Both the position numbers and the translations under genes were made by a program. Shown one piece after another: positions 7,572 through 35,560 of a DNA stretch of 64,000 bases (position 1 is its first letter; each line of letters starts with the position of its first letter). The stretch spans positions 873,828 to 937,827 of the forward strand of contig FN649728.1 of assembly GCA_000310025.1 (NCBI GenBank), read 5' to 3'. Under the pieces are notes generated by a model. The model was given only the letters and a program-made list of their open reading frames with translations, was not told where the DNA came from and ran no database searches. The stretch is from Ectocarpus siliculosus (Eukaryota; Sar; Phaeophyceae; Ectocarpales; Ectocarpaceae).

Positions 7572-10500
7572 ATGGATACCGGCCACTTTCCGCTCCCCGT
7601 CCCGCCCCTCGGCCCTGTGCTCACGCGCAGCTACCCCGCCCCCTCCGCCAACATCATGGAGCCGGCACCTGGGTTCAAGGCCAAGGCGGTGGTCGACGGC
7701 GACATCGTCGACGTCAGCACGGACGACTACAAGGGAAAGTGGGTCGTTCTCCTCTTCTACCCGAAGGTAATATATATATCAACGGACGGACACAGACACC
7801 CGTTCGGTTGTCGGGGTAGGTAGATTTTTGGTTAAGGGCTCGAGCGTTTGGTTGTTCGATCACCGGCTCGGTGGCGATCTGAAGTTGGGGGCACAGGCGA
7901 TGGTACATTTTGCATACGGGGAGGGGGGCTCCGTCTCGCCTTCTTGCTAGATCCTGAACTGAACGTGCAGTTCTTTCGTCATTGAAATGAGGCCGGGGTT
8001 AGGCGACTTGCGGGCAAGGAATCAGCTCAGGCCATTTTCTCGAAGCGGTAGTCGAGAGCAGGGGGGTGAACATGGATGGTATTATACCATGAACAGGTGT
8101 GCCGGTCGTATGCTCCTCGTGTCGCTCTCCAAGGCGACCCTACTATGTGCCGATACTGGCATTCTCTTGAACAGGGCGTGTGGCTTGGTGCTGTGTGATT
8201 GGAGCCAACGTTTGGCTACGCTCTCGACGCTTTCAAGCATAGGGTTTGCGACGATGTTGGAGAAATTTAAATATTCCCGTTAAGATTCAGGTCGTGGTGA
8301 GATTTCGCAGACGGAGTCAGAACCTTGTGTGGTGCACTGTTGCTTTGAAGTAAGACGCCCTGCTGTAGTCAAACCGCGGCCGGTGCTAGCCTCATCGTGC
8401 TGTCCTCGGTTGCTGTGGTTCGACTGATGCTGCGTAGTCGGTCGGTCGGTCGGTCGGCGCTGGATAAGCCTTTCCTTGAAACGTAAGGTTTATCTGTCCG
8501 AATAGATCGGTTCTTGTGTGAAGGGAACAGTTATGTGAAGGGAAACTAGCAGCGTGTACAAACGACAAGCCACAGGCCGCTGCTGTAATTCAACTTTGCT
8601 TTCGTTGTCTTCGATTCATGTTCAAATTTTGTTGTTCTTCTGCAGGACTGGACGTTCGTGTGCCCGACGGAGATCATCGCCTTTTCTGACAGACACTCGG
8701 AATTCGAGGCCCTGGGTGCACAGGTAAAAATGCAAACACAAACCCGAGGTTATTGTAGACAGACGCCTCCTAGACCCGCTTGGCTTGCAGTTGCGTCTCT
8801 GTGTGTCCTGTGGCCTTCTTTGGGCCAAGGCCAGCAAGGAACTGAACGTGTTCCTGTCTTTCCGTGGTAACCCCGCTTGGCGTCACCGAAGGGTCGTGAG
8901 CGACGGTCAACAGACGATACCCTTTGCCCGGCACGCAAAACGAAAGGATGATGACAAGCTTCTGGTTCATGCTTGTAAAACGTATCCGGGGCCGGCGAAA
9001 ACTCGGCATATCACTCCGTCCCGGCGTTGTAAGGATACGAGGTCAATGGTCTGCGGACTACGACTTCGTTTACATGGATGGGAGCGAATAGTGCAGCTAT
9101 TGGGGGCATCATATCATAGTTTCTACTTCTCACTCCCCCAATACGACGGCGCGCCGTGCATCCGCAAGGCGTAACGAATTTGTTCCGTGGTCGGTTGCTG
9201 GAGGTCCTGACTGCTTTATTGTGCCCTTTTTGGAACCGGACGCGCTGTGCGTGTTGCATGAAGGTCCTGGGGATCTCGACGGACACCGAGGACAGCCACC
9301 TCGCGTGGACGCGTCACCCCCGAAAGAGGGGAGGGCTGGGGCACATGAGGTGCGCGTAATTTGTACCACGTGCCACTCATCCTCCAGTATTCACTCAATG
9401 GCTGGTTGTCTGCATGTTGAGAGACTGACCCTAACCCTCTGTCCAGCACCCCCCTCTTCCCTCGGTCTCACAAAGAAAAGTTCGAGCATCGGCGGCCACA
9501 GGTAAATTTAGCCTACCAAGGTGAACATATCAAACATATTGTGCCGGCGTCTTCACTTAGCCATTCCTGTTACTATTATTGCTCTTGACCTAAGAACAGT
9601 TAATGAAAGTATCGGATTTTGGATGAGGCCTCCAGCTTGGAGGCCGGAGGTCCAACCCAGACCTTCACGCCCGCAAGTGGAACAACCACGGGCGCTCTAC
9701 ATTGAGCACGGTGCTGGACTAGGTGCCCCGCCATGGCGGGAGAGGGGTAAACAGAGGCCAAGCGCTGGTACGGTAAAAGTGCTACCACGTTTGGCGCAGA
9801 GACGTCTCCACCGGCGGACCCAGCACAATGGCACCGCCGCGAAGAAGATGATCGGAGTCCCACCCAGGAGGGTGGCGATCGCTGTGCGGACGACCTGCAC
9901 GCAGTTATGTCGATGTCGAGCGGGTCAGCATACTCCCGATGACGACCTCCAGAACGCGGTAGGCGCCAACCGGATGATGATCTTCCGCTAGTAGGGCCGT
10001 GGGATGGCATCGGCCACGCTGTTCGCCGCCGTTTGGAGGAGCCCACGTACAGTAGTCAGGGAGGAAGAGGAAGGCATTCTCTACCTGGAGGTCAAACAAG
10101 CGGATATTCATGTCGTGCATATGGTACGGTTCTTCGCCCGCCGCCCGCGGTCGAAGGAGACCAGTTGCCCGAGACCCGCAGCCTGCAGCCGGTCCGCAGG
10201 CGGTAGATTTCGACGGGCGCTGGTGCTGCGGCTGACGCTGGTGGCGCGGTCGGCGTCGGATTGGCCCGAGTTCCTGAAACCTCTCTGTTTTTTGTTTTCT
10301 CCAATGTTCTCGCGTGTTCACGGTGGGGAGAAAGACATTGACCAGCTGTATGTGATATATCAAAATGCTATCGGGGCTGCCGCCTGCATCCAATTTCGTG
10401 CCTAAATTGTTTATTTCGTTTGTGTGGACCCGACTTTGCTCGTGGGTCTGCCCCCCCCCCGCGGCATCCGATCTTGTGCCTTGCAGGATCCCCCTTGTCG

Positions 10501-13500
10501 CCGACCCCACGAAGGAGATTTCGGCGGACTACGGGGTGCTGATCCCGTCTCTCGGGATCGCTCTCAGGGGGCTCTTCATTATCAACCCCGAGGGCATTCT
10601 CGAACAGGCGAGCTCGTCGGTGTCGCCGGAATTTCTGTCGCCGCGTGTGGTGTGTAGCAGGTGTTGTCGAAGGAACATGACCCTTACCAACTCGCGGAAC
10701 TGTGGATGTGGTCATTCCTTGTTTGTCAAAATGTGATGACCAAGTTTGTGCACGTGCAGCAACCCGTGCCTTTATTGTGCCTGTAGGAGCGAAGTGAACT
10801 TTGGTGATTCGACAGGGGCTCGTGGTCTGCAGGCGTACTGAATTCGGAATCCGTTGAACTCCTAGCGGAAAATCGTTCGGAATCGGAATAAAACAACCTT
10901 GTGTTCTCATACTGAACAAAGAATTAACCCATCGCCACTATTCGTCCTATTTTAGACCCGGCTCGAACACCGCAATTGCATTGGTACTCTATCGACGGTG
11001 CCTAGGTTTCCGCCGGCCTGATACCAAGTGTTCACCTTTTCCGGATCCTGTTTCTCGCACGTACTGCTTGGACGCGGCTTTCGCTTTCCTGAGATGGCGT
11101 GTGCTCTGTGGATGGCTCTTCGGAGGCTCCGGCCCACCATCGCCAAACATTTTTTTCCCGCAACCCCGCCGCAACCTTGACATAAATCACTCTCATGCTG
11201 GGCTACCAATATCCCTCTCTTCCGCACCCTAACGCGATCTTGGCTCCTATCACTGCACCACAAACGTTGGTCCGAACGCTTTAGGTGACGATTAACAACC
11301 TGGGCATCGGCAGGGATGTGGATGAGACTCTTCGACTAATCCAGGCACACCAGTTCCTGGCAAAGCACGGCGAGGTAGGGGTGTGGGTGGGCAGATGGAT
11401 AGCGAGGTAACTTGAGCTACAATTTGTGCGACATGAGGGCATCTTAACTCGTGTTGTTGTCGCCCTTTGCCAATGGAGTCATGTTGATACAATGATGCAT
11501 GCGCCTATCTGGAGAGTCTCGAAGCAAATCGTTGGTGTTTTTTTCAACAACCGTTGTGGCTATGAATGATCGGATCTGCTGCTTCCAGCGCAGCAACTTT
11601 GTGTTCCAAGTACACTAAATACTTCTTCTGTCGCCCTTTTTCCCTCCCATTCTCTCTCGCAGCGAGTGATGGGCTTCAGGCGAGCCCAGGGCTATCAATG
11701 TTACGGTTGTCAATATGGATATCCGAAACCCAACAGTGATGTACTGGAATCATCTTTGCAAGATTGTGTGGCCGCAACGACCGTCACCAGCGTCGCGATA
11801 GACTGACCCTTCCTCGCCTCGGACGTCCCTCCTCTGACGCTCCTCCTGCAACGATTCGAACGAAACGACCATTACGGCCGCGTTCAGGTGTGCCCGGCCG
11901 GGTGGAAGCCGGGAGACAAGACGATGAAGCCCGGCTTGGACGCGTCCATGGAGTACTTCTCCTCCGGCGCGACGGAGAGCGAGGAAGACCCGCTTGAGGT
12001 ATTGGACGGCCTGCGTTTTTTTTTTTTATGTTTTTGTGTCCATGCTGCATCCGCCGCTGGGTTTGCGGTGTTTCGTGCCGGCGTTGTTCTCGCTGCGGGT
12101 GGTCTTTTTGCAGCGTTTTTGTCGTTCCCGCTTTTTCTTGTCCTGTTCTGCTGGAGTAGGTGCAATACTCTGCAACCTCTGTGCGGGTCGTGGGGTTGGT
12201 GTGACAATGGCGAGCGAGAAATCCCGGGCAATCGGACGTATTATTTCTCCCGTCTGGTACCATCCACCTCGTTGATTCGCGCTGCTGTTTCACTCTTGCC
12301 GTTATTTTGCACTCAAAAGACGCCCTCTTTTCACCGAAACCGCAATAAAATGGCTTGTCGGTTACGCCCAACTCTAGGCTCTTGTGTATCTCCCAACCCT
12401 CCGTCTCACGGCACGCTCTCTTACGAACACGGCTTTCGCCTTGCACGCGCCGCTGTGGACCCCGGTGCTCTAGGCTGGTGACAAGATGGTGGTGATCAAC
12501 TCCCCGAACGACTTCAAGGACGTCACCTCCGAGGCTCTTGCCGTTGTCGACTGTGAGTATGGCGGGCGGGCGGCTGTTCATTGCCGACGGGTAGCGGTCG
12601 AAGCGGGTGTTGGAACGGTGGCGTTTTCCCCGCAATGCTCGAGATCATGAGTTATACCACCCCCTGCAACGGTTTCAATCGTGGAAGACGTTGACCGTTG
12701 TGGACTGCGAGTTTAAGACGGAGACCTGCCACGACCAGTCGGTGGGGCCGTGCATCAGTTTGCAGCTGCTGGGGCGCGCGTGCCACAATTTCCCTGATTC
12801 CTCCGCCGCTCGTTGTGTCTTACCGCATTACCTTTGGCGTTCTTCTGAGGAGCTACCGCTCCATGGTTTCGCAGAACGTTCACTCTCTGCTGTTTTGAGT
12901 ATGAACGCTAGGAGATGGGAAGTTTCACTCTGCGCTGTTGCTGTGAACATCGGCACTATGAGATTCACTGGTTCCCTCGGCAATAATCGAATCGTGTTGT
13001 TTGAACAGCAACCACTTCCGACATGGCGCCACGATGGAGTCAGGTTTTGTATTCTCACGTGCTGGCATTCTTCGGTCAGTGCGCACGTGTGAAGCAAGTG
13101 ATGCGTATTCACGATAAATCGCTTTCTATTGATACACTGTGGCGAAGGAAGATGGAAACACGCGGCGGTCACAGAATTCGTCATTATCCATTGTACGCGA
13201 CACGGTGTCCTACTGCCGCACTAAACCCTTAAAGAGAATACCCGGAAGGACGTACACGCCAACTCCCCGAGGGGGATTCCTCGTTGTCGACTGTGGTGCG
13301 AATTGATGATCCTGCTAAACCATTGCCACAACCATCCATTGTTCGGGCAATGCTGATGCCACCGGTGGTTCTGCGCACCTCGTTGGAGTTGGACCCCCCC
13401 CCCGAATACAGCAAGGATCTGAGATGCCCACTCATGTCCATGATATGCTTTGTCATCCGTTGCTGTGTTTTGTCGTTCGTGTTGCCCTGTTGACTCGAGT

Positions 13501-14136
13501 GCACGTGAGCGCGATTCTGCGCACGGGGTCCAGTTGCACGTGTGGCTGCGGTAACTGACATGCTTCCCCTTACTTTCCATGTTCGCTATTTCCGCGGAAT
13601 GTTGACTCATCCATTAGTCGTGGCACCGCACTGTGGCAAGTGCCGTCAGATGATGCCGTTCGTCAAGGAGCTCAGCGAGGAGTTCCCAGAAGTCACGTTC
13701 GCCAAGTTCGACACCACCGGTGAGATGGGTCATCGTTGAGTTGGTATTATCGTCGTTGTCGTCGTCGTCGGCGGCGGCCGCGGCGTTGCTGTTTCGTGTT
13801 TTGTGGGGGGTTGGTGTTGGTGTTGATGCTACTGTGGGTGCTGCAGTTGTTAGTGTTGTTGTGTTGATGGTTTGTTGGTTGAGCTACGCACCGCAGAACG
13901 GGGGCTTCTTGTTTACTCGGCTTCTGATCTTTCGTCGTCCTTCTCCTCCTGTGGCTGTTGTATGACCTGCCTGGTCATCAGAGGAGGCGATATCAGAGCT
14001 CTCCACGGACCTGGGGGTGGAAGCCCTGCCGGCTTTCCGGTTCTACAGGAAAGGGGAAGAGGTCGTGGAGCCTGTGATGGGCTACAAGAAGAAGAAGCTC
14101 CGAGCTGCCGTTGAGGAGTTGCAGAAGAAGGCGTAG
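7572..14136 (+). CDS. 2-Cys peroxiredoxin fused to a C-terminal thioredoxin domain
   Basis: Nine exons: 7572-7766, 8646-8723, 9264-9349, 10487-10607, 11285-11374, 11888-11998, 12486-12552 (or from 12474), 13618-13719, 13982-14136. Phases agree throughout and give about 334 residues. The peroxiredoxin part has the peroxidatic Cys in TFVCPTE (Cys71), [32 protein letters not shown], the [10 protein letters not shown] strand and the resolving Cys in [10 protein letters not shown] (Cys192). GGLG plus a C-terminal YFSS make it the hyperoxidation-sensitive eukaryotic type. Exon 6 has no stop after the acidic linker [12 protein letters not shown] and splices in frame to [12 protein letters not shown], the start of a thioredoxin fold. 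That domain has APHCGKC (Cys255/Cys258), the cis-Pro region [14 protein letters not shown] and a Lys-rich last helix ending at TAG 14136. Peroxiredoxins reduce H2O2 and need thioredoxin to recycle, so the fusion would carry its own reductant. Start: ATG 7572, with a second in-frame ATG at 7656. The alternative is two adjacent genes. Confidence 0.85.
8990..9085 (+). repeat. Dispersed repeat C, copy 2
   Basis: Matches 972-1060 in the same orientation: CTCCGTCCCGGC, GTTGTAAGGATACGAGGTCA and GGACTACGAC blocks. It lies in intron 2 of the peroxiredoxin-thioredoxin gene. Confidence 0.55.
10608..11284 (+). other. GC-AG intron
   Basis: Exon 4 ends CTCGAACAG followed by GCGAGC, and exon 5 starts after TTTAG at 11285. 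Joining them gives [15 protein letters not shown], exactly the contiguous peroxiredoxin sequence expected. No GT donor nearby keeps the frame without adding residues. The strong CAG/GCGAGC context fits the minor GC-AG class handled by the main spliceosome. Confidence 0.7.
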
Positions 14137-20397: not shown

Positions 20398-22224
20398 ATG
20401 TTCTTCGTTTCCCCCGGCGCCGCCAGATGTTCCTTCGTGCTGTCACGAGAATTTGGCGTGCCCTTCAAGGGCTTCCTATGGCTACTAGTGTTGACCGTAC
20501 AGTGCGTTTCGAGCCAGTACTGCCAGACGGATGTCGTGTCTTTGACGGGCACCGAGTTTGGAAATGAGTACACGTTTGAGTGCGTAGAAGGCGCGTACGT
20601 CAGCGAGGTGACCCTATCCAGCGAAACCAACGGCTTCACTGGGTTCATTCTGACGTGCTCTGATGGAGAAGTCAGCGAAATTTTCGGCTATTGCTTCTAC
20701 CGAGACACCTTGTTCGTAAAAGTGTATTGCACCGGTGGTTGGACGCAGCTGTCTACAACTCCCAGTCTCGACACAGATTCTCCAGCGAACGCGAGCTTTT
20801 TCTGCTTCAATGACGGCGGTCCATCGGGTGCTACCCTTGGGCCCTATCCGTGAGTGAAATTCAGAATATCGTGTGCATGTGGTCAGTTGTACTATCGGGA
20901 TCAGAAGAGGCTGGCACAGATTCTGCCAGACTTCTGTTTGTGTATCAAGAGTTGTTCATGGACGGTGTTTGGCCACGCCGATGTCTCGTAACTGTTCGGT
21001 CGAACCCGACCGTATCATGGACTCCACAGCATCATCTTTTGCTCAAGCCACATCATCCCGTTTGCCGCATGTTGAAGGTCCGAGGGAGGAAATCCCGACA
21101 CTTCCGCCGAAATCACGGCATCCTCATGCGACGACGGCAGCTATGCCGTAGGGGTGACGGTGTTCGAGTTTCTCGCTTCCCTTTATGGTGTGGCACTCCA
21201 TTGTAGGGCAATCGACGAGGCTTCGTGCCCTGCTCCCGACGGTCTGCTCGTGCCGGGCACCACCGGAACCACGGATGATGTCACCGATGACCTTGTCAAT
21301 TCCAGCCCGACACCCGGACCCATGTCGGAATCGCCTACGGAGCCTACCCCTGAGCCCACGCCCGCCCCGGTATCAATCCCAACACCCGAACCCACGTCGG
21401 AACCGACGACCAAGCCTACCCCTGAGCCCACGCCCTCACCCGTATCAATTCCAACATCCGAGCCCACGTCGGAACCGACCACCGAGCCTACCACCGAGCC
21501 TGCCCCACAGCCCACACCCACACCGGTATCAATTACAACACCCGAACCCACGTCAGAACCGACGGCCGACCCTATCCCTGAGCCAACGCCTGCACCCGTG
21601 TTAGTCCAGACATCCAAGCCCACTTTGGAACCGACGGCCGAACCTTCGCCTGAGTCGATGCCCACACCCGCATCGATTCCAACACCTGAACCCACTGACA
21701 TCAACCCCGTCGGTCAACCTCATTCACTTACTTCTTCTCCCTTGCGCATTGCAGCCCCCGCCACTTACACGGGTGACGAAGCATTGGCCACCACCCCGAC
21801 CCCTGTGGGTTCCACGATGACACCTACGTCTTCACCTTCGCCCATCGCGACCTCCGCCACAGAAACGGAAGACGACGCATCGGCCACCACCCAGAACCCC
21901 GTGGGTCCGACTTTGACACCGACTCCCGGCGTCCTGCAGGACGCAGACGACGACAACGATGATGGGAGCAACGACGACAGTATCTGGACCGAGACGGTGA
22001 CAACCGTTGTGAGCAGCGTAGCATCGGCGGTCGCTTTGGCTTTTCTCGCTTTTGCGTTCAAGCGGTTACGTGGTTCCCATGACGGCAGGGAGGGACGGGG
22101 AGAGGCCAGCCCGAGGGGTGAAGGAGGGGACCATGGTAACAACCGCAACGGCGGCATCGTCATCTCCAAGTACTTTTTCGGAGGCCACAACTCGATCGGC
22201 GACACCACCACCAACAGCTCGTAG
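20398..22224 (+). CDS. Predicted type I membrane protein with two related Cys modules and a Pro/Thr/Glu-rich stalk (intact copy 1)
   Basis: Two exons, 20398-20849 and 21078-22224, give about 532 residues. Exon 1 ends TATCC before GTGAGT; exon 2 starts after TTGAAG and the split Pro codon restores frame. The N-terminus has the hydrophobic run GFLWLLVLTVQCVSS, then QYCQTD, as expected for secretion. Two modules follow with the same pattern: CVEGAYVSEVTLSS..GFILTC and CDDGSYAVGVTVFE..GVALHC. A long stalk repeats TPEPTSEPTT-like units from about 21330 to 21700. One membrane helix follows (VSSVASAVALAFLAFAF, about 22005-22055), then KRLRGS and a Gly/Asn-rich tail with GGHNSIGD. The architecture suggests a surface receptor or adhesion protein. 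The modules resemble the C-G-x-V-x-V...C rhythm of beta-prism-like folds such as VMO-I, but I could not confirm a family. The only undamaged member of three. Confidence 0.7.
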
Positions 22225-31559: not shown

Positions 31560-34500
31560 CTTATGCCACAACAATGATTCGGCCATCCCTTTTCCTCCTC
31601 GACCGTGTATCCAATTCGTTGTGCACATCGCTACTCACGTTGTTTGAGAATACTTTCCAAACGATTCCTCTTTGTATGTGACTGCGACGAAATGCTAGCT
31701 CACGACCCAAGCGTTATCAGGTCGCCAGGTTACCGACTGAGCTGCTCAACCACCCTGAATACTTCTCAATACCAGACCCAGCGTAATAGCTCGATTTCAA
31801 CTTTGTTTTATTGTGCTACGGCTGCTGAATACTGGACTCTCCCCCCCCGACCTTGTACACGAGGCGACAGAAACTCCACCGAACACTGCACTGACGCGTG
31901 CAAATTGTGCGACCCGGTCACTCGTGCAAAGTATACAGCAGTCTTGCCGAAGACGGAGTCCCTCTCTCTTCCGTGTCCGTTTCGTGATATGCCACAGCAG
32001 CAAACGATACGCCGGCTTTTCTACAGTAGCGAATTGCCTGGTGGAAGACATGGGTTTCTTAAAGAGAAGATGGCATGTTATCCAGAAGGTGAGAACCGGT
32101 GCGACGGGGGTTGCTAGATTAGCATACAATTGTGCCACGGAAGGTCCTTCAATTGCGGGGTAATGACGCAAGGGCGTGGAGGCACTTGGTAGAAAGCCGT
32201 GAGTGCGTTTGGGGGACGTGAGGACCAGTTGTTGCGAGACGGCGACGTCTGTATTTGTGTTTGTCGGTAGAGTCACTTTCGCATAGCGTATTGATAAGAC
32301 CCCAGCTGATAAGTTCAAAATTAGAGAGTATTCGGAAGGGTAAGTGTAGCCTGGCGCCAGAAATAAAGTAGACGAAAACACACCACACACAAAGTACAGG
32401 TGTATCGTGTCTGCGCGTGAGCCCAATTACCCTACCAATTTTATCAATTTCAAGCATTGTTTCCACAAGGATCATGATGAGCACCGACCGGCGCTTGCCA
32501 CGCCACCGGTTGTTGCATCCCATACGGTGCCATGGGTTGCATTCCTTGAGTTTCCGCCGTGTTGAAGGAATCTGGTCCCTGGAGGCGTTTCCGAAAATTC
32601 CGAGAATTGTCTCCCCGGCAGGGCAATTCTCCCTCCTGTTTTTATCTTCCCATAGGTAACAAGGCCAACTATTTTCCGGAGACCGTTCCTCGCCCGATGG
32701 ACGATTAGTGGCTCTTCGGTACCTCGGCGGAGAATATATATTCTACTAAGACAGTCTGTAGGACGGCCAATATCGATGCTGACTGGAAAACTAGCGGACA
32801 CAAAATATATTTTCCTCTTTTTGCCACCGCACCGCCGATGTCCCTTCGTGCCGCCACGACTCCTGGCTCGATATTCAAGGGGGTTCTTTGGTTGCTGGTG
32901 TTGAATGCCCAATGTTCTTTGACTGGGACTGACTTTGGCAACGACTACACCTTTTGAGTGCGCGGAAGGCGCTTATATCAGCGAGGTGACAATCGATGGC
33001 TTCATGGGGCTCATTCTAACGTGTTCAGATGGAGAAGTGAGCAGAGGTTTCGGGTCCCACGTCTACAACTTCTTGATAGAAGAGGATTTCACCGGTAAGT
33101 GGATGCGGCTGCCTACACCTCTGAGTCTCTTCAGTGAAGCTCCATCGAAGGCGAGCCTTTCCTGCTTCAACAAGGGCGATCCATCCGATACCTCCCTTGG
33201 ACCTTATCCGTGAGTGAAGCAAAAAACAACGCGTGTTGGTAGACGACCCTCTCGGGATCAGAAGAGGCTGGCATGAAATCGTCAAACGTTGAAAATGTAC
33301 GAACGCCAGTGTGCCTCGTATCTTTGAATTCCGAATCTTGCGTGGGTTCGTTGGAAATATGTGCTGCTGGGAGGCCTGTTTCACATCAAAGGGTGGAATT
33401 TGGCCATGCCAATGCTTTATAACCGTTAGGCCGACGCTCTGAAGTGTCAACAGCCTGATCTTTAGCTCAGACCACTTCCGTCGCGTTTGCCGCACCGGAT
33501 TTTGCAGGTCAGAAACCAACCCCGGCACTTCCGCCGAGATCTCGTCCTCGTTCGACGACGGTAGTTATGCCGTAGGGGTGACAGTTTTCAAGGTTTGCGT
33601 TAAGATCTATGGTGTGGCACTCCATTGTAGGGCTATCGATGAGGCTTCGCGTCCTGCTCCCGATGGGCTGGTCTTGCCGGGCACCACCGGAACCACGGCT
33701 GATTACACCGATGATCGTTCCACATCAAACCTGATACGCGGAGCCACGTCGGAGTCGACCACCGAGCCTACCCCCGAGCCGACGCCCACCGGCATCAGCC
33801 CCACCGGCCAACATCACCGATTTAGCCCGCCCAAGGCTTCGAATTCTCACCCATCGCGGCCCCCATCACAGACATGGATAGCAGGATCAAACTCCAGAGA
33901 GGGACTAAATCACCTGCGGATCATGCTAGGACAACACTGTTTTCAGCCTCGTCCAGCAAGACTCGTGCCCCGGTGGCTCGATATGTGGTTCTTTTCATGG
34001 CTGGAATGTAGTGTTCCACTGTCAGGCAAACCGACTAGCGACGATGACATGCTTGACTCGTTTTCAACGCCGCCCATATTCAGACAACACACTGCGCGCC
34101 CTACGGTGACGCCGGGAACTGTGCGTCCTACGGCGACGCCGGGAACTGTGCGTCCTACGGTGACGCCGGGAATCCCCGACGTAAACGACGCCCCCCTTAA
34201 GGACGCAGACGTCGTAGACGGCGCCGGTGACGCCAGCAACTGGATCAAGGCACTGACAGTCATCTTGAGCACCGTCGCGGCGGCGGTCACATTCTTCGCT
34301 TTCGTATTCCACCGGCTACGCGGGAGCCCTGACGGTGGTACCCGGAACGGCGGCATCAACGGCAACACAGTTACCTGTGTTTTCGGATGTCACAACTCCA
34401 TCGGCGACACCAACAACATCACCCCGCCGCAAGCTGAAGGGCATCGCAACAATGTAGCCGACGGTTGCACGTCCGGCGAACACGGCAGCGACGACGTCTT

Positions 34501-35560
34501 TTTCAGCGCGCGCAGCAGCCCCGTACACGTTGGCGGGCTTTGCAACGACATCGGAGCAATGCAAACGTCTCTGTAGCAAAGACACATTTGCTCGGGTACA
34601 GTAGCGATGGGTATGATAATGAGGGTTGCAGCCGCCACCTTAGGATTGTGTTGTTTGGCGTGCAAAAATGCAGGTCACAACGCGTTACTTACCCTCCCTC
34701 CCGTCCATCCCCAACACTCTACGAATAGATTCTTGTTGGTTTTCGCATGTGTTTGGCAAACATGGTTCTACGCTCCGTTCAATGACGGGGAGAGCGTCGC
34801 CCGTTTCACCATCGTGGTTTACTCTTCTCTCGGGGCGGCTATAACCTGTTTTGGCCGGCTGGGTGAGTTGTGGTGGTCCTCGCATGAAAAGCGATTTGAT
34901 GTGTCGGTCAAAATCGATACCAGTATTTGCCAGATTCTTCTCAGCCGAAGAGGTTTGTTAAGCGGGGATTTACTTTTCGTGTGTATTCCTTGTGGGGCGA
35001 GTACATGTAGGCACGACGTACCGTAGTTCTTCATCCTAATAGTTGCCGATCATACCTCTATGAAGTACCACGTGGAGAACATTGTTACAGCAGCGTGTTT
35101 TGCTCTGGAACCTTCATTATTTATTCTTGGAAAACCCCGGTCCTGGCCTATTAACGCCTCAAGATAGAGATGGAGTCAAGCTGTGTCATGAGGCTTTTGG
35201 CGTCAGGTTGCCGTTGTTACGTTCCCCGTTTTTTTTTTCTTTTCACGGGCTGCTGGGTTTTTCGTTTGCTGATCGCGTGTTTTCGCCCCATCTATGCTGG
35301 ACGCCAGTGTACACCTTCCGGGTATGTTTGACGCACCAGCTGAGGTCAGCGCCACACCACAGGAGACCGGTAGATACAAGCACTGGAGATCGAAACCTGA
35401 TCCGAATTTGGTGGCTGTGGGAACTGCTGTGGGAGCGGCACCGATCGTTCAGAAGAAGTTGCCCAGACACAAACAATTGCCGAGACCAATATTGGCATCA
35501 ATAAGATCCGAAAAGAGGCTCAGATTTGCTTTCGGCATGACGTGACAACGCCCCCCCGCT
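31560..35560. repeat. Segmental duplication block, copy 2
   Basis: Closest to copy 3 (36500-41690). Shared segments include TCCTCCTCGACCGT near the start, the A-box segment at 31690-31790, and CCCTCCCGT(C/T)CA(C/T)CCCCAAC near 34695 and 40865. GAGATGGAGTCAAGCTGT at 35168 recurs at 41350. Confidence 0.7.
32838..34576 (+). pseudogene. Membrane-protein paralogue, copy 2, broken in exon 1
   Basis: The start ATG at 32838 opens MSLRAATTPGSIFKGVLWLL. Compared with copy 3, 33 bases coding for the GQYCQTDFLF region are missing in frame. One extra T at 32951-32954 (ACCTTTTGAG instead of ACCTTTGAG) then brings a TGA. After the shift, the frame continues through CAEGAYISEVTI and GFMGLILTCSDG to the GTGAGT donor at 33210. 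Exon 2 (33508-34576, after TTTTGCAG) is open: FDDGSYAVGVTVFKV, TEPTPEPTPT, three VRPT(V/A)TPGT units, one membrane span (LSTVAAAVTFFAFVFHRL) and a tail with CVFGCHNSIGD, longer than in copy 1. A single-base sequencing error could explain the frameshift. Confidence 0.7.

Follow-up and report, generated by a model that had tools for sequence, protein, structure and literature searches.

Does a brown alga make a peroxiredoxin that carries its own thioredoxin? Peroxiredoxins normally draw free thioredoxin from a common pool, and this dependence links the removal of peroxide with many other reactions of thiols. The question is raised by a locus at 7572-14136 of a 64,000-nucleotide stretch of the Ectocarpus siliculosus genome (contig FN649728.1, forward-strand positions 873,828 to 937,827), which we refer to as the window and whose numbering we use throughout. 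We favor, at a probability of about 60%, the reading that the locus is a single gene, that its product is a typical 2-Cys peroxiredoxin (Prx1-type) extended at the C terminus by a thioredoxin domain, and that this product acts as a self-recycling peroxidase.

Re-splicing of the raw sequence joined nine exons on the plus strand, from 7572 to 14136, into one 338-amino-acid frame with no internal stops, in agreement with the nine-exon, single-frame model of the first-pass annotation. Exon 1 (7572..7766, residues 1-65) opens with an ATG and encodes an N-terminal extension and the first strands of the peroxiredoxin fold. Exons 2 to 4, for which alignment provides the evidence, carry the peroxidatic Cys71 in the sequence WTFVCPTE (8646..8723, residues 66-91), the GGLG motif (9264..9349, residues 92-120) and the catalytic Arg147 (10487..10607, residues 120-160), and exon 5 (11285..11374, residues 161-190) leads into exon 6 (11888..11998, residues 191-227), which holds the resolving Cys192, the YF motif and the start of an acidic linker. 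Beyond intron 6 (11999..12473), which separates the two domains, exon 7 (12474..12552, residues 228-254) supplies the end of the linker and the first thioredoxin strand, exon 8 (13618..13719, residues 254-288) the thioredoxin active site, and exon 9 (13982..14136, residues 288-338) the remaining thioredoxin hallmarks and the TAG stop codon at 14134-14136. All eight introns end in an AG acceptor and seven begin with a GT donor; intron 4 has a GC donor directly after 10607 (CAG/GCGAGC), and use of an alternative GT donor about 12 nt downstream would add four residues. Upstream of the ATG at 7572 the frame stays open without a further methionine, and an additional exon in that direction is possible.

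Judged by its motifs and domain matches, the first half of the predicted protein is a typical 2-Cys peroxiredoxin, complete and of Prx1 type. It matches Pfam AhpC-TSA (PF00578) over residues 30-160 (E 1.4e-40, 138.5 bits) and 1-cysPrx_C (PF10417) over residues 182-215 (E 1.1e-11, 44.9 bits), both above the cut-off. The PxxxTxxC active site and the catalytic arginine are present as Pro64, Thr68, Cys71 and Arg147, all four invariant in a five-sequence alignment in which this half is 63% identical to AcePrx-1, and the resolving Cys192 lies in the C-terminal segment (VCPAGW). GGLG (114-117) and YF (213-214), the motifs of the hyperoxidation-sensitive form, are both there, so that each of the features first claimed for this half, Cys71 and Cys192 included, was recovered at its position in the re-spliced protein. 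The nearest solved structures for this half are animal Prx1 and Prx2 (E ~1e-77).

A linker of 17 residues (215-231), acidic and with a net charge of about -5, leads into a match to Pfam Thioredoxin (PF00085) over residues 239-332 (E 6.5e-18, 65.1 bits, profile positions 8-102 of 103), likewise above the cut-off and, as with the other two families, far from a chance score, which upholds the initial description of an acidic linker running into a complete thioredoxin fold. The active site reads HCGKC (258-262) in place of the WCGPC of ordinary thioredoxin, a variant absent from the first-pass annotation; both cysteines and the glycine are kept, and the tryptophan and proline are replaced. The domain should nonetheless be redox-active, because the buried Asp253, Pro267 after the active site, cis-Pro304, Gly312 and Gly321 are all retained. 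With different residues beside and between its cysteines, it may have a shifted redox potential or prefer other partners. This half matches thioredoxins and the a-type domains of protein disulfide isomerases (PDIs) at 1e-17 to 1e-19, and its top match is the PDI family member TXNDC5 (ERp46); PDB entry 8eky holds Prx4 chains together with a TXNDC5 chain.

Whether these two halves belong to one gene turns on the junction between exons 6 and 7. Exon 6 goes on for 13 codons past YF, through an acidic stretch and without a stop, into a phase-0 donor. The missing stop and the phase 0 shared by the end of exon 6 and the start of exon 7 bear out the first reading. The bacterial and nematode peroxiredoxins compared by alignment end no more than four residues after YF. 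When the exon 6 frame is read on into intron 6, 160 codons stay open (11999-12478) before the first stop, a TGA at 12479-12481. Out of 3,000 dinucleotide shuffles of the intron, only 76 were free of stops in this frame. A peroxiredoxin-only product would therefore need a different splice. The plus-strand stretch 11999-12478, if the intron were retained, would encode a sequence rich in Phe and Leu. The splice signals at the junction (AG/GT and TAG, phase 0 on both sides) resemble those at the remaining introns. Intron 6 matches intron 8 in its richness in T, and its acceptor is on a par with the acceptors of introns that homology confirms. An artificial join in the assembly is unlikely, given that the gene contains no N and that a single contig of 7.3 Mb carries its two halves; the window as a whole contains 100 N.

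The main competitor at this junction is a pair of adjacent genes, in which a peroxiredoxin would end within intron 6 by way of another splice and a thioredoxin would start at the ATG at 12486. That position had been taken as the start of exon 7, which the re-spliced model places 12 nt upstream, at 12474. The ATG at 12486 is then in frame but internal (Met232), and it has a good start context (AAGATGG). Because of that context a separate thioredoxin transcript starting inside intron 6 is conceivable, and the thioredoxin opened by this ATG would be of natural length. The intron also offers acceptors that would lead quickly to a peroxiredoxin-only stop (for example at 12157, 12160 and 12378), none of them remarkable; as acceptors they are weak, with GAG at 12157 as an example. 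Its single AATAAA, at 12344, could be read as a gene end but is not diagnostic, as the same hexamer occurs within intron 4 (10887). In addition, 475 bp would have to accommodate the 3' end of one gene together with the promoter and 5' untranslated region of the next, and the exon 6 frame goes on past YF for 13 acidic, linker-like residues and then runs open for 160 codons. Two adjacent genes are thus an unlikely reading, and no competing gene model equals the single gene in simplicity.

One gene with alternative products is a slightly better prospect, though still rather unlikely as an account of the locus. Here the fusion would be made alongside free thioredoxin from the internal start, since a full thioredoxin domain follows Met232, or alongside a peroxiredoxin-only splice form that uses one of the candidate acceptors in intron 6. 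Together, the junction data suggest that the fusion is probably real, and we regard it as very likely to be the main product of the gene.

The prokaryotic and viral relatives covered here give no second example of the fusion. Out of 157 prokaryotic relatives in GTDB contigs, the best 80 proved to be plain peroxiredoxin genes without exception, with no fused peroxiredoxin-thioredoxin frame among them. In six of these 80, all from Acidobacteria, the match extends into the thioredoxin half (to residue 276-319), but it does so by crossing stop codons into a separate gene for a TlpA-like protein of the thioredoxin fold, and the candidate fusions were rejected as two genes. At each of these loci (L082, L084, L085, L087, L089 and L090) the TlpA-like gene directly follows the peroxiredoxin gene. 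L082 and L084, the two loci that were read throughout, also have a gene for a Fur-like regulator just upstream. The arrangement resembles an unfused state, and it lends the two-gene reading a precedent for peroxiredoxin and thioredoxin-fold genes that are adjacent yet separate. A whole-genome survey of 634 prokaryotic genomes from three phyla (398 + 119 + 117) returned, among the matches listed, none that covered both halves in an open frame. Viral contigs yielded peroxiredoxin matches that were plain peroxiredoxin genes only, no match to the thioredoxin half and no fused gene.

We found no report of a natural Prx1-thioredoxin fusion in the open literature, and a 2009 atlas of the thioredoxin fold found only glutaredoxin combined with another thioredoxin-fold domain (PMC2757866). 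The parts are ordinary, and their combination appears undescribed. The remark in the first-pass annotation that such a fusion seems unusual fits the results from prokaryotic genomes as well as those from the literature; among other stramenopiles the fusion might be common, and it may already be predicted in relatives.

What the rest of the genome provides was assessed with exon-wise searches that covered the 189-Mb assembly (492 contigs). These did not find a second Prx1-type gene in the assembly, from which a plastid-encoded copy could be absent. The further AhpC-TSA matches translate as PrxQ-like genes (contigs C480, C6 and C461), a 1-Cys-like gene (C23) and a divergent gene (C476). Ordinary WCGPC thioredoxins are encoded elsewhere in the assembly. 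Contig C33 (genome G000) carries a gene for a thioredoxin reductase of the TRX_reduct family; there the stretch 1447497-1456302 (L161) contains thioredoxin reductase exons followed by a thioredoxin domain with TCGPC, lacking the tryptophan, and amounts to an NTRC-like gene. A profile search for genes of the ParB/sulfiredoxin fold gave no match with PF02195, a poor probe for short sulfiredoxin exons. Because of the gene on C33, the reductase that a self-recycling enzyme would require is available in the organism, and we consider its product a candidate reductase for the fusion protein.

In the mechanism that we propose, peroxide would oxidize Cys71 to a sulfenic acid, which would pair, as is usual, with Cys192 of the other subunit in an intersubunit disulfide. 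The HCGKC site, tethered by the 17 flexible acidic residues that follow YF, would then attack the Cys71-Cys192 disulfide and become oxidized itself, and a thioredoxin reductase would in turn reduce it. YF would cover the peroxiredoxin active site, with the thioredoxin tether beginning after it. By our estimate the linker could span some tens of angstroms, so that the tethered domain could reach the disulfide of its own dimer or that of a neighboring one. Such an enzyme would need NADPH and a reductase, and free thioredoxin would be dispensable. Thioredoxin-type oxidoreductases usually reduce the disulfides of typical 2-Cys peroxiredoxins, and mixed disulfides link PrxIV to thioredoxin-fold PDIs, ERp46 among them (PMC3824332). 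Self-recycling is plausible because both cysteine pairs, the linker and a genomic thioredoxin reductase are present, although the activity of a site without the tryptophan and proline of WCGPC towards either peroxiredoxin or reductase is not assured. Of the original interpretation, then, the gene model and the domain order are confirmed, while the self-recycling peroxidase is a plausible deduction from sequence.

The changed active site also bears on a different use of the same fusion, as a peroxide sensor or relay in which the peroxiredoxin would oxidize the HCGKC domain and this in turn would oxidize client proteins, in place of a scavenger recharged by a reductase. HCGKC is non-canonical, and replacement of the proline in CGPC-type sites makes them more oxidizing. 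A relay would also suit the best match of the domain, since ERp46 belongs to the PDI family and accepts disulfides from PrxIV (PMC3824332). However, we saw no obvious ER signal or retention motif in the protein, and apart from its active site the domain is like an ordinary thioredoxin. We consider the relay improbable, more so than either of the alternatives at the junction, and retain the self-recycling peroxidase as our preferred reading.

If that reading is true, peroxide removal by a Prx1-type enzyme that carries its own thioredoxin would no longer be tied to other thiol reactions. The protein would also offer a natural test of how thioredoxin docks on the C-terminal tail of a peroxiredoxin and, as a natural single-chain peroxidase or peroxide relay, a useful tool. 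A bolder proposal, which we advance tentatively and at somewhat less than even odds, is that the organism has a single typical 2-Cys peroxiredoxin and makes it only in fused form, joined to a dedicated thioredoxin with the altered HCGKC site, so that each peroxiredoxin ring has its own recharging domains and is run directly by thioredoxin reductase; such an architecture would be new to peroxide metabolism and signaling in eukaryotes. Were the fusion common to all brown algae or stramenopiles, it would represent a lineage-specific rewiring of redox metabolism and not a curiosity. Elsewhere in the window, two long related open frames lie about 12 kb apart on the plus strand (21076-22221 and 33443-34573), both with SAEI..DDGSYAVGVTVF and VALHCRAIDEAS; by their sequence they may be either local duplicates that form a family or copies of a repeated element.

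Set beside known systems, the peroxiredoxin half shares its catalytic residues, both cysteines, GGLG and YF with the Prx1/AhpC subfamily (animal PRDX1-4, yeast Tsa1 and chloroplast BAS1), but where those proteins end just after YF, the predicted Ectocarpus protein has a linker and then a thioredoxin domain. The acidobacterial pair has the same order, a peroxiredoxin and then directly a thioredoxin-fold gene, yet in two frames with stops between them and with a second protein that is not an ordinary thioredoxin.

In plastids and cyanobacteria, NTRC is a dedicated reductant of 2-Cys peroxiredoxins, and CDSP32 and NTRC, two peroxiredoxin-dedicated thioredoxin modules of plants, lack the tryptophan before CxxC. 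The Ectocarpus fusion shares this lack with the NTRC thioredoxin sites, which read GCGPC in a cyanobacterial NTRC (L155) and TCGPC in the NTRC-like gene described above. An NTRC origin of the thioredoxin half, the idea that this likeness suggests, is unsupported by the sequence scores, with 44.7 bits to NTRC against 44.3-46.6 for ordinary thioredoxins. The architectures differ as well: NTRC joins thioredoxin to a reductase, whereas the predicted Ectocarpus protein joins it to a peroxidase, and Pfam finds no FAD/NADPH reductase domain in the 338-residue product.

Comparable in plan are the bacterial Prx5-glutaredoxin hybrids (hyPrx5), such as the natural fusion of Haemophilus influenzae (PMC2757866), in which a peroxiredoxin likewise has its own C-terminal reductant of the thioredoxin fold. 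The 338-residue protein does not have the Prx5 peroxidase and glutaredoxin domain that mark this type. In hyPrx5 the peroxidase is an atypical Prx5 and glutathione feeds its glutaredoxin, whereas the predicted Ectocarpus protein pairs a Prx1 of the typical 2-Cys class with a thioredoxin domain.
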